A stretch of DNA of 64,000 nt from Halogeometricum pallidum JCM 14848 (GCF_000337095.1 NZ_AOIV01000006.1:125789-189788), one strand, 5' to 3'. Shown: positions 49,331 to 52,895, numbered from the stretch's first letter. The notes: generated by a model from the sequence alone, not told the origin. Translations and numbers: made by a program.

Positions 49331-49402
49331 GCCTGGGTAGCTTAGCGGTAAAGCGCGTCCTTGGTAAGGACGAGAGCCCGGGTTCAAATCCCGGCCTAGG
49401 CT
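49331..49402 (+). tRNA. tRNA-Thr (anticodon GGU), attachment site of the element
   Basis: A 72 nt cloverleaf. Acceptor GCCTGGG/CCTAGGC pairs with one G-U. The anticodon stem CGTCC/GGACG encloses TTGGTAA (GGT). The T arm is CCCGG-GTTCAAAT-CCCGG. Its 3' third is repeated at 52795-52814. A hairpin tgcgcc-tgc-ggcgca follows directly at 49403-49417, probably a terminator supplied by the element. Confidence 0.96.
49377..49396. repeat. attL-like repeat inside tRNA-Thr
   Basis: This 20 bp part of the tRNA-Thr 3' end matches 52795-52814 except at position 49382 (G versus A). Integration in a tRNA 3' end keeps the tRNA functional, as here. Confidence 0.8.
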
Positions 49403-49480
49403 TGCGCCTGCGGCGCAGACTGTAATTGGCAGACAGCGCCCTTCTAGCATAAGTTTATCGCCTATTAGCGGCAGGAAGGC

Positions 49481-49550
49481 CACCCGTTTTCCGGCACGTT
49501 TCACCGGCAAACGGTGCCGGGAAAGGACACCCGTGAGCGCAGTCACCCGT
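49481..49550. repeat. element hairpin and three CACCCGT copies
   Basis: ccggcacgttt (49491-49501) and aaacggtgccgg (49509-49520) pair as an 11 bp stem with one bulge and a 7 nt loop, extendable by the flanking tttt/gaaa. The heptamer cacccgt occurs at 49481, 49528 and 49544 around it. It could be an excision/replication site or a terminator for the leftward genes. Confidence 0.5.
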
Positions 49551-49619
49551 CTGCGTGCGGTGGTTTCAGAGAATGAGCCGGTGTGACCGAATCTCATAGC
49601 AAGATATTACTTTTGGTTA

Positions 49620-50015
49620 TTACTGTGGCGCATTCCCTATAGGGTCGGTTTGTCGGAATCGCTGAATCGGACGGAAAACGTCACCACAACGTGAATTGTT
49701 CCTCTGTAGTTGACCCAAGAAGTAGACTCTTGCAGACTCGCCATCGGGAGCGGGAACGATAGTAGGGTGATAACAGAAGGCGTTTAGAGAGGTCTCGCCT
49801 TTGCCTATCGTCTCTACCTCTATCGGTCGGGATTCCATCTCGGGTTCGGTGTCGAACTCGCCGGTCACATCTGATACGAAGAAGGATACGGTCACTTCGT
49901 CGGAGTCATATTCTGCGGGAAGGAGGCTCACGCTATCGGCGTCAATGGGTATCTTGACGGTGTCTCCCACGGTGGCCCGAACCGACCGCCACCGATGGGG
50001 GATGGGTTCAATCAT
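49620..50015 (-). CDS. element protein of unknown function
   Basis: A 131-residue protein, MIEPIPHRWRSVRATVGDTV..., with a strand-rich middle (VKIPIDADSVSLLPAEYDSD, EVTVSFFVSDVTGEFDTEPE) and a basic C terminus. No signal peptide or known domain. It is downstream of the cyclin-box gene on the same strand with a 101 bp gap and likely in the same transcript. Start at the ATG where coding character begins; the upstream frame is arginine-rich and implausible. Confidence 0.55.
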   Translation of the reverse strand: MIEPIPHRWRSVRATVGDTVKIPIDADSVSLLPAEYDSDEVTVSFFVSDVTGEFDTEPEMESRPIEVETIGKGETSLNAFCYHPTIVPAPDGESARVYFLGQLQRNNSRCGDVFRPIQRFRQTDPIGNAPQ

Positions 50016-50116
50016 TGGGGTCGCTCTCGGTGGGTAGCGGACATAAGCCTGTCTCGTGTTCGGTAGCCCAATCCTGCGGGAACGCGCCGTCAATCCCGAA
50101 TAGGACGCTCCGTGGC

Positions 50117-50818
50117 TCAGATGGCCTCCTGAAGGGATACTTGGGCATCCAATACGTCCGAACCCTCGAAGCCGTCTGAGGCTTCTGGGTCGTCGTATTC
50201 GGGGGGTGTCAACGTCCCTACCACCAGTTCCTCTTCGTCCTCCTTCTCCACCATAGATAATACTGGACGGTTTATATACCCCTCCCCCCACCGGCTCCGT
50301 GCAAACCGGTTCTGTACCTTGCCATAGAGTCGGTGCCGCTGGCGCTCCGTCAGGCCAAGTCCGTCTGCGAGTTCTCGGAACGAAATTTCCGCGTTCGCCT
50401 CACCACAGGCAGGGTGAGTCTGTCGAATATCTCTCTCGTCAGAGTGGACGAGGTACGTACAGATGGCCCACGCTACGAACCGCTTGTCGATACCCCACTT
50501 GCGGAGGTCTTGGGAGAGAAAGAAGGAGACAGCGCGTTCCCGCTGAATCCGGCTCAGTTCGAGGCGAGCGGCGTAGTGTTCGATGAGGTTTCGGTTCTCG
50601 ACGTAGGTGTAGTACGAGCCGTTGTACCACTTCGGCCCGTTCCGTTTCCCGGCATCGACCTCGTCCTGATACTTCCAGTAAGCCCCCTTCCGAAGGTAGA
50701 GATAGTCCGCTCGGAAGTAGTCGTTCGCTTCCGACCAACCCTCGTAGCCGATTCTGGTCTCTCTGCGGGTGTCGGTCTTGACGAGATGCGTCGCTGTGTC
50801 TGTGGTTGCTATGGACAT
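50117..50818 (-). CDS. putative TFB/cyclin-box-like or rpo-epsilon-like regulator of the element
   Basis: A 233-residue protein. Residues 25-60 contain SEANDYFRADYLYLRKGAYW. Residues 80-175 look like a cyclin-box bundle (RLELSRIQRERAVSFFLSQD, KRFVAWAICTYLVHSDERD, then ISFRELADGLGLTERQRHRL with an HTH-like end). The C-terminal 50 residues are acidic. It recalls the haloarchaeal proteins annotated as RNA polymerase epsilon subunit; this is from memory and unverified. A transcription-factor-like role in controlling the element is inferred. ATG at 50818. Confidence 0.6.
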   Translation of the reverse strand: MSIATTDTATHLVKTDTRRETRIGYEGWSEANDYFRADYLYLRKGAYWKYQDEVDAGKRNGPKWYNGSYYTYVENRNLIEHYAARLELSRIQRERAVSFFLSQDLRKWGIDKRFVAWAICTYLVHSDERDIRQTHPACGEANAEISFRELADGLGLTERQRHRLYGKVQNRFARSRWGEGYINRPVLSMVEKEDEEELVVGTLTPPEYDDPEASDGFEGSDVLDAQVSLQEAI

Positions 50819-51253
50819 AGTACTCCGGGGCCACCGGGACGCGCCGCTCAGCACCGTTCTCTCGGTAGTTCCCCCCTCCCGACTGCGTCAGCGGATATAG
50901 CCCTGCTGAAGTAGGCAACCGGAGCCGGGCATCTGGACGCCGAACCAACACCGTCTCTCCGGACGAATAACGCCTTCCCGCCGCATATAGCACGCCGAGA
51001 AGCCCTTACGCGCCCGAAGAAATTCCCATCACCGCGAGGCAGGTAACGTAGGTCAGGAAGCCCCCTTCCAGAGTGGTGTAATAACCGGCCCGGCGTTCCC
51101 GCTGGGTTCGACTCGGTTGAGCGCAGTCCTTTGCCTATGAAGGATTGCGGGTAGTCGGGCGTTGGGTAGGTGAACTGAGCGAAATCCGCCTTGTAGTGTT
51201 CATAGTCTTTAGCCATCAGAAAACACTTAATGACTCTCTTAGTTGTGTGGCCC
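50819..51253. other. element intergenic region
   Basis: Apart from the doubtful ORF, this 435 bp holds the divergent promoters of the cyclin-box gene (leftward) and the lipoprotein gene (rightward; acttaatgac at 51225-51234 lies about 22-30 bp before its GTG, fitting leaderless transcription). No repeats stand out. Confidence 0.35.
50848..51216 (-). CDS. doubtful element ORF
   Basis: A possible 122-residue product starting MAKDYEHYKADFAQFTYPTP, whose first 30 residues look natural but whose remainder (rich in Arg, Gly and Ser without hydrophobic pattern) looks like noncoding frame. A start near 51216 would be divergent from the lipoprotein gene. It may be a short or frameshifted gene rather than the full frame. 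Confidence 0.25.
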   Translation of the reverse strand: MAKDYEHYKADFAQFTYPTPDYPQSFIGKGLRSTESNPAGTPGRLLHHSGRGLPDLRYLPRGDGNFFGRVRASRRAICGGKALFVRRDGVGSASRCPAPVAYFSRAISADAVGRGELPRERC

Positions 51254-51652
51254 GTGAAGTCACGAATTGGTTCCCTGTTGCTACTTGCCCTGCTGGTCAC
51301 TTTTGCCGGCTGTGCAGGGATTGGTAGCACCGGCCCTGACGTTACCGAGGAAGAAGCGAGAGAACAAGCGCTCAGCGCTGAAGAAACTCGTGTAACCCAA
51401 GCGTTGGAGAACGCGAGTTACGTCACCAGCAGTAGCGTCGGTACCTACGCCGAACCCAACGCAACCGTCGTGAACAGCAACAGTTCGGGCGTCGAAGTTC
51501 GGGTGAAAATGCCGTATTCGTATGAATACAGTTGTGAGAGCGGTTCCAGCGGGGCGGTTGACGGTCTGAAAACGAACGTGGTCTATCAAGTGACTGATTC
51601 CACCGTTTCCGTCACGACAATCACAGAGAACATACGAAACGCCTGTGCCTGA
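51254..51652 (+). CDS. element-encoded lipoprotein
   Basis: A 132-residue protein from GTG 51254: MKSRIGSLLLLALLVTFAGC is a signal peptide with a lipobox (TFAGC20). The mature part is Ser/Thr/Asn-rich with a helix (EEEAREQALSAEETRVTQAL) and strands, plus several N-glycosylation sequons and two further cysteines. Export to the membrane surface is predicted. Surface lipoproteins on mobile elements may act in entry exclusion or attachment; here that is speculation. An ATG at 51230 gives a less typical leader. Confidence 0.7.
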   Translation: MKSRIGSLLLLALLVTFAGCAGIGSTGPDVTEEEAREQALSAEETRVTQALENASYVTSSSVGTYAEPNATVVNSNSSGVEVRVKMPYSYEYSCESGSSGAVDGLKTNVVYQVTDSTVSVTTITENIRNACA

Positions 51653-51677
51653 ACACATATCGGGCCGCTGTTCAGAT

Positions 51678-51706
51678 TCCCCCTTTGCTAACGGGGTGAA
51701 GGGGGA
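51678..51706. terminator. bidirectional terminator-like stem
   Basis: tccccctt (51678-51685) and aaggggga (51699-51706) form an 8 bp stem with a 13 nt loop between the stop codons of the convergent lipoprotein and integrase genes. Confidence 0.45.
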
Positions 51707-51713
51707 TACGGGC

Positions 51714-52721
51714 CTAAATGTCCTTGACGTAGTCTCGCCGTCGTTCCGCCTTCTCGGCGCTTGAACCCTTGTCGTAGTGCTTATCCAGCACCTTCCCGCT
51801 CATATTGACTCGCTCCCCAGTCACGTCCTTAGGCTGTCCCGCGTTCCGCGCCGCCGTGACATAGCCCCGACGTAGGGCGTGGGGGCTGACCGAGCCGGGA
51901 CACTTACACGAGCCATTCCACGACATAGCCTCGCAGGTCTCGGGTTCCCGGTCGAACGGGCAGTTCCCGCCGTTGTAGTAGCAGGGACGAGTCGCCGTGT
52001 AGACGTACCGCTGAATGGTCGTCTCCACGATGCGCCCACTCTTGGACGTCAGGAGCGGCTCTCTGGCGTGGTCGTCGGTGACGTCCTTCCGGTTCATATC
52101 GATGTAGTCGCGGACGACGTCGGCCACCTCTGGGGTTATCAGCACGTCCCGCTCGCTCCGTTCCTTGTTCTTGAGCGGCGTCCCCTCTGTGGGTCGGTGG
52201 CGGAGTTCCAGCGCCGGACGGCCTTCGTCAAAGTCTCCGAGGTCAAGCGCCCGAAGACCGCTAAGACGCATCCCGGTCTTCCAGAGCAGTAGCAGAGTGA
52301 CGTGCCGGTTGCTGGCGTATTCGTACTTCCCGAGAAAGTCCAACAACTCGGAGGCTTCGTCCCGCGTGAGGAGGTCGTCACAGATTTCGTCGTTCTCGCT
52401 GACAGAGGGAATCCGAACCATATCCGCCATCCCGCGCGGGACAGCCGTGATGTGTTCGCAGAACTCGATGAACTGCTTGATGGTCATCATATCCTGCCGT
52501 GCCGTGATGACCTTGACCTTGGACAGCCGGAACTCCTTGTACCGCTGGATGAGTTCGCTGTCGAGGTCGTTCAGGTTCGTGAGTTGCTGGTCGTCCAGCC
52601 AGTCGCAGAACTGGCGCAGGGACGTGCGGTAGTTCTTGAGCGTCTTCCGGGTGACGCCCGGCTTCTTGTCGTTGAGGAATCGGTTCTTGGCTTCGTGCGG
52701 CGGCGTTGGTTTCAGGCTCAT
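51714..52721 (-). CDS. tyrosine recombinase (integrase)
   Basis: A 335-residue XerC/phage-type integrase. Residues 1-105 are the SAM-like core-binding domain. Catalytic residues by motif: R152 (KTGMRLSGLRAL), a lysine near 183-186 (TPLKNKERSERD), H281-x2-R284 (SPHALRRGYVT) and nucleophile Y316 (VLDKHYDKG). Between them is a cysteine-rich insertion with C247, C254, C263, C272 and C274, seen in other haloarchaeal integrases and possibly a zinc knuckle. The gene is 73 bp from the distal att repeat, as expected for the recombinase that inserted the element. The frame is open further upstream, but the family start is the ATG at 52721. Confidence 0.92.
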   Translation of the reverse strand: MSLKPTPPHEAKNRFLNDKKPGVTRKTLKNYRTSLRQFCDWLDDQQLTNLNDLDSELIQRYKEFRLSKVKVITARQDMMTIKQFIEFCEHITAVPRGMADMVRIPSVSENDEICDDLLTRDEASELLDFLGKYEYASNRHVTLLLLWKTGMRLSGLRALDLGDFDEGRPALELRHRPTEGTPLKNKERSERDVLITPEVADVVRDYIDMNRKDVTDDHAREPLLTSKSGRIVETTIQRYVYTATRPCYYNGGNCPFDREPETCEAMSWNGSCKCPGSVSPHALRRGYVTAARNAGQPKDVTGERVNMSGKVLDKHYDKGSSAEKAERRRDYVKDI

Positions 52722-52794
52722 AGGCTGTCTGGGTACAGCCTGCGTAAACGGGTCGTCCGGGTACACAGGGCGTGAAACGCCCGGTGGACGAGAC

Positions 52795-52814
52795 CCCGGA
52801 TTCAAATCCCGGCC
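52795..52814. repeat. attR-like repeat
   Basis: Second copy of the 20 bp tRNA-Thr-derived repeat (one mismatch to 49377-49396), followed by gtattcttttttcccc. Confidence 0.8.
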
Positions 52815-52895
52815 GTATTCTTTTTTCCCCGTTTTTGGCTTTCCGTTGAATAAGCAAGTACCACCACTAACCCTCCTCGAACGCAACCACGAGAA

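Follow-up and report, generated by a model that had tools for sequence, protein, structure and literature searches.

In archaea, tRNA genes have already been described as sites of small cryptic integrated elements and of integrase islands that carry restriction genes (PMC6563490, PMC7921747, PMC11078007). The archaeal cryptic integrated elements (CIE) of Krupovic et al. 2019 (PMC6563490) are small, possess an integrase and att repeats and are devoid of virion and conjugation genes, and the smallest of them, with a length of 2.6 kb, encodes an integrase, a wHTH protein and two unknown proteins. IGE1-3 of Haloferax gibbonsii LR2-5 (PMC7921747) and the integrase islands of Halorubrum ezzemoulense (PMC11078007) are inserted in or located close to tRNA genes, encode an integrase and restriction-modification cargo and have a low GC content, and the IGEs additionally show duplicated tRNA 3' ends. 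In SNJ2 and other beta-pleolipovirus proviruses, an SNJ2-type integrase is located at one end of a tRNA-integrated element.

Here we analyzed an element with likenesses to all of these systems, which lies in a stretch of 64,000 nucleotides of Halogeometricum pallidum JCM 14848 (hereafter the window). As in CIE, an integrase and att sites were found and virion or conjugation genes were not. In contrast to thaumarchaeal CIE, which have no signature gene, the haloarchaeal set to which it belongs is marked by a cyclin-box gene (CYC), a tRNA-Thr-specific integrase branch and conserved ends. SNJ2-like proviruses differ from this set by their virion genes, the DUF7845 gene and a size of about 15-17 kb compared to about 2.4-11 kb, and CYC was not found in these proviruses. 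In the IGEs (PMC7921747), the integrase adjoins the intact tRNA, whereas in the window element it is located at the far end beside attR. The excerpts consulted make no mention of a cyclin-box gene for IGE1-3 (PMC7921747) or the Halorubrum islands (PMC11078007), and no description of the cyclin-box-marked set was found in the literature searched, to which the SNJ2 integrase paper does not belong. We consider it highly probable that the window copy belongs, in integrated form, to a haloarchaeal family of site-specific elements of compact size (about 2.4-11 kb), and this copy is most likely locked in. The features of the locus are given in Table 1.

Table 1 Features of the integrated element and its borders (positions are counted from the first nucleotide of the window).
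Feature	Position	Strand	Basis
tRNA-Thr(GGT), integration target, attL side	49331..49402	+	ARAGORN, own-genome search
Proximal copy of the 29-bp repeat, attL core, T-arm	49368..49396	+	
Conserved left end	49403..49560	+	alignment of 11 left ends, motifs
UNK, 131 aa, downstream of CYC, same strand	49620..50015	-	weak phrog_23534 match
CYC, 233 aa, single cyclin-box (TFB/TFIIB-like), conserved N-terminal region	50117..50818	-	phrog_12649, alignment, model, fold searches
LIP, small lipoprotein, lipobox FAGC, likely start GTG 51254	51230..51652	+	weak DUF7206 match
INT, 335-aa SNJ2-type tyrosine integrase	51714..52721	-	domain matches, alignment, relatives
Conserved right end	52722..52785	.	alignment, motifs, folding
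Distal copy of the 29-bp repeat, attR	52786..52814	+	
End of older T-arm scar (GTATTC) and T-run; chromosomal, common to the empty G004 locus	52815..52830	+	

The 20-bp direct repeat with one mismatch that an earlier, sequence-only reading had proposed as the border of the element (CCCGGGTTCAAATCCCGGCC at 49377-49396 and CCCGGATTCAAATCCCGGCC at 52795-52814) is exact, although the full repeat is longer and comprises 29 bp with 2 mismatches (27/29 identical). Among 100 sequences of 64 kb simulated with a first-order Markov model, the highest-scoring match to the 29-mer had a mean of 19.5 and a maximum of 22 out of 29 positions, and the distal copy is the sole other match of at least 20/29 on the same strand of the window. 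The proximal copy is the T-arm of a tRNA-Thr(GGT) identified by ARAGORN. A search of the own genome, whose assembly has a completeness of 99.98%, revealed a single copy of tRNA-Thr(GGT), the remaining matches being tRNA-Ala, tRNA-Thr(CGT) and tRNA-Gly. Between the repeats the G+C content is 58% compared to 67% for the window, which is the minimum among its 3.4-kb stretches. The enclosed 3.4 kb encode, as had been predicted, an integrase (INT), a TFB/cyclin-box-like protein (CYC), a lipoprotein (LIP) and an unknown protein (UNK); likewise as predicted, no capsid or replication gene was recognized among these four proteins, nor was any conjugation gene.

A comparison of the syntenic tRNA-Thr locus in relatives, which the sequence-only reading had suggested, revealed a collinear, element-free locus in a genome of the same genus (G004), in which the gene order is kept and the flanks are 90-92% identical. 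Thus, both an att repeat copying the 3' part of a tRNA and an empty site in a relative are present, and together with siblings that use the same att site and the low GC content this strongly supports the assignment as an integrative element in tRNA-Thr. In G004, the tRNA-Thr is directly followed by TTTTAACG, then by a 104-bp spacer with a T-arm palindrome and then by GTTCAAATCCCGGCCGTATTC; the sequence ending in CCCGGCCGTATTC, 104 bp further on, is a truncated, older T-arm copy. A comparable short spacer with a T-arm copy follows the tRNA in G002 and G001. The distal repeat of the window ends in CCCGGCCGTATTC, as does the older scar in G004, while the aligned sibling elements end in CCCGGCCTAGGCT or a one-base variant upstream of it. 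Based on these shared and divergent ends, the 3' part of the distal repeat is an older scar, and the window copy has lost the DNA that separated this scar from the original attR, through either homologous recombination or the integrase. The T-run beyond the distal repeat had been taken for the original tRNA terminator, but this is ruled out by the G004 locus, where the tRNA runs into TTTTAACG instead; the distal repeat ends on the older scar.

Directly after tRNA-Thr(GGT), inserts of about 100 bp were found at L027/L147 (G004), L026 (G001), L022 (G002) and L035 (G013), which contain a T-arm palindrome (GGATTTGA...GTTCAAATCC) and are accompanied by a second copy of the T-arm. They are small scars of earlier integrations or mini-inserts. 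We also considered the T-arm hairpins to be a dispersed repeat, which was rejected: G002 and G004 each have one copy, both at the tRNA-Thr locus. Second partial copies of tRNA-Thr(GGT) are located 0.1-25 kb away in G003, G008, G009, G011, G013, G019, G022 and G029; because such copies occur in many relatives, the locus is a recurrent integration hot spot.

INT contains PF02899 (Phage_int_SAM) and PF00589 (Phage_integrase) above the cut-off, and the catalytic R, K, HxxR and Y are kept, with R152, K184, H281, R284 and Y316 being invariant in the alignment with SNJ2. Its identity is 41.5% over 99% of the protein to the SNJ2 integrase and 43.7% to that of HRPV9 (36-44% when HHPV4 is included), so that it belongs to the SNJ2-type family by the identity criterion (30% or more across a minimum of 60% of the protein; PMC8371274) as well as by domains and catalytic residues. 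In the proposed comparison of the four proteins with pleolipoviruses and plasmids, INT matched pleolipovirus families; the other proteins had no match there, and CYC had none in plasmids. INT had no match in IMG/VR. Four cysteines (247, 254, 263 and 274) are invariant in 12 of 12 aligned integrases including that of SNJ2, which suggests a possible metal-binding insert in the catalytic domain. The same genome encodes a second SNJ2-type integrase (G000:C8:124426-125433, L002), which is 42% identical and has no tRNA within 1.5 kb.

The nine closest INT relatives of named genomes are 83-95% identical and come from Halobaculum, Haloarcula, Halobellus, Haloferax, Natronorubrum, Halorussus and Haloterrigena. 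Eight of the nine reside in elements of 2.4-7.7 kb that are bordered by tRNA-Thr(GGT) on one side and by a copy of the 3' end of this tRNA on the other. These relatives occur in different haloarchaeal families, with full att copies and unrelated cargo. The comparison indicates that this INT subfamily prefers tRNA-Thr(GGT). At the nucleotide level, INT is 94% identical to that of G335, which belongs to another family, and 90% to that of G008 (Halobaculum gomorrense), whereas the flanks are only about 71% identical, from which we conclude that the element has spread horizontally across haloarchaeal families, with its cargo being swapped. Furthermore, CYC is about 85% identical to its counterpart in G398, where the element resides in tRNA-Thr(CGT), while the INT pair shares only 68%, so that the window element is a mosaic.

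The first approximately 160 bp inside the tRNA and approximately 65 bp between INT and attR are kept among siblings. The left end, which is 80-83% identical in the G008 and G064 elements, contains a hairpin (TGCGCC-TGC-GGCGCA) after the tRNA, an invariant TGTAATT (49421) and three ACCCGT motifs (49482, 49529 and 49545). The right end harbors GGGTACA twice (52731 and 52759), AACGGGT as the inverse of the left ACCCGTT, and a hairpin (GGGCG-TGAAA-CGCCC) beside attR, whose stem is altered on both sides in L092. The conserved motifs represent candidate integrase-binding sites, and the left end a candidate integrase-binding arm. The SNJ2 replication operon is put together by circle formation (PMC13107129), which prompted the idea that the left end might provide INT with a promoter in the circle only; inspection by eye revealed no convincing TATA signal there.

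The only profile match of CYC is phrog_12649, and searches against solved structures by sequence profile gave chance hits only. The structure model of CYC, for which 20 homologues were used, has a pLDDT of 75, with values above 90 in the core, and shows one cyclin box at residues 66-179. With Foldseek alone the E-value is about 1, so that the assignment, which had been guessed before and which is structural, is singled out only by the realigned Z of about 10 and the consistency of the list: each of the best 50 structures after realignment is a TFIIB-like factor, a cyclin or a complex that contains one of these (50/50), with Z of about 8-10 over approximately 97 residues (rmsd about 3), and the Z of about 10 is to TFIIB/Brf. 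CYC thus shares the cyclin-box fold with archaeal TFB and eukaryotic TFIIB, but contains one box instead of two, has neither a zinc ribbon nor N-terminal Cys pairs and shows a different conserved N-terminal region. Among viral structure models, a protein of Halogranum tailed virus 1 matched best (E 0.013). No CYC match was obtained in phage records (tblastn), IMG/VR or PADLOC.

CYC is present in 40 of the 391 sampled genomes of the class, including the own genome of the window. In 27 of the 39 other loci, CYC follows the 3' end of a tRNA gene, and in 22 of the 27 a copy of this end with a length of 12-44 bp is present on the far side; in the 5'-side control, no copy of a tRNA end exceeded 10 bp. 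The elements with a far-side copy span 2.9-11.3 kb and reside in tRNA-Thr, Ala, Glu, Val and Lys genes. The ten most divergent loci have no suitably placed tRNA, and two of them are located beside viral-type replication genes. CYC accompanies two different integrase types, and it is not obligatory, since only four of the eight tRNA-Thr siblings that the integrase scan yielded contain it. One of the siblings without CYC (L091:8933-11050, Halobellus sp. Atlit-31R) possesses a GmrSD restriction gene and encodes a primase-like protein that contains an NrS-1 polymerase domain.

We infer that CYC is a DNA-binding regulator, or a replication initiator, of the element. The latter role, i.e. CYC as initiator and not as transcription regulator, is conceivable but doubtful: apart from an integrase, CYC is the only gene that recurs, little more is encoded by the smallest elements (2.9-3.9 kb), and distant homologues adjoin phage-type primase and exonuclease genes; however, its fold is that of a TFB/cyclin box and not a known Rep fold, about half of the tRNA-Thr siblings do without it, and the Halobellus sibling has a primase-like gene of its own.

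Known or predicted antiviral genes were found in about 21 of the 35 elements mapped, comprising type I restriction, Eco57I-type IIG enzymes, Mrr, HNH type IV, DpnII, GmrSD and HsdR-like proteins, a SIR2 protein with a match to PADLOC PDC-S65 and proteins with matches to PDC-S31; two of these assignments are weak, namely those of L078 and L093, where a single HsdR_N-like protein stands alone. The window copy, with INT, CYC, UNK and LIP, is a minimal member, as are those of G398, G093 and a few others. A LIP homologue is located between CYC and INT in the G093 element, and G398 encodes an unrelated lipoprotein with a lamin-tail-like domain; one might guess at a role of LIP in surface exclusion. 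In the G008 and G335 elements, CYC is likewise followed by a homologue of UNK that is encoded on the same strand. In a Haloarcula argentinensis contig (L090:10105-12240), a predicted methylase contains LIHISDGDVYKRQ, which we take to resemble sequencing-adapter read-through and which may be an assembly artefact.

When the flanks of the window copy were joined at all 30 crossover points of the repeat, none was accepted as a tRNA by ARAGORN (0/30), whereas every crossover point restored tRNA-Thr in the six sibling elements (6/6); such restoration is expected of an active element and not required of an integrated one, so that the result concerns mobility only. The distal repeat ends on the older T-arm scar, and hence no crossover restores the single-copy tRNA, which is why the window copy is probably locked in the chromosome. 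Since tRNA-Thr with a GGT anticodon reads ACC and ACU codons and no other copy exists in the genome, loss of the element should be lethal once this loss is fixed. That the copy is still fully mobile, either because excision gives a usable tRNA or because a second tRNA-Thr(GGT) covers the loss, is rather unlikely given the lone gene in the nearly complete assembly and the failure of each crossover point, even though neither INT nor the two ends of the element are damaged, a normal attP would be present on the predicted circle and, haloarchaea being polyploid, sister chromosomes could serve to repair a broken copy of the tRNA. Under polyploidy, transient excision may occur.

In the proposed course of events, the SNJ2-type integrase would recombine a circular form, whose att copies the T-arm and the tRNA 3' end, into tRNA-Thr(GGT), and the tRNA would be kept whole by element DNA after integration. 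In the window copy, loss of the segment between the original attR and the scar 104 bp downstream would have joined these two sites; as a result, the sole tRNA-Thr(GGT) would lack an acceptor stem after excision, and the copy would most likely be locked. Excision, replication of the circle and transfer are presumed steps, and the element would spread without transfer machinery of its own, presumably by haloarchaeal cell fusion, vesicles or helper elements.

Neither a spike nor other virion genes nor Rep-Arvir DUF7845, the known replication initiator of SNJ2 (PMC13107129), were matched among the four proteins. A decayed provirus, i.e. a beta-pleolipovirus with an SNJ2-type integrase that subsequently lost its structural and replication genes, as which IGE3 of Haloferax gibbonsii is described (PMC7921747), would be in line with the integrase identities, but is very improbable, because INT alone matches pleolipovirus families, CYC was not found by tblastn in phage records, and siblings of varied sizes share CYC and the conserved ends with no virion gene recognized among the cargo scanned, which argues for the compact form as a recurring state and not one decay event.

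Beyond the integrated and probably locked family member, we tentatively put forward a bolder scenario, which may well prove wrong: CYC would mark an undescribed, widespread class of defence-carrying haloarchaeal elements and act, being derived from TFB, as the element's own initiator of transcription or replication after circularization, and the window copy would be addictive, its loss being lethal via the only tRNA-Thr(GGT) after the fusion of attR and scar. The signature gene and the tRNA-specific integrase branch turn scattered cryptic islands into a recognizable family, and haloarchaeal antiviral systems can be searched for between tRNA and att sites, also in small members with cargo such as LIP and UNK. 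Moreover, the locked copy would provide a direct test of how an essential single-copy tRNA can fix an integrative element.
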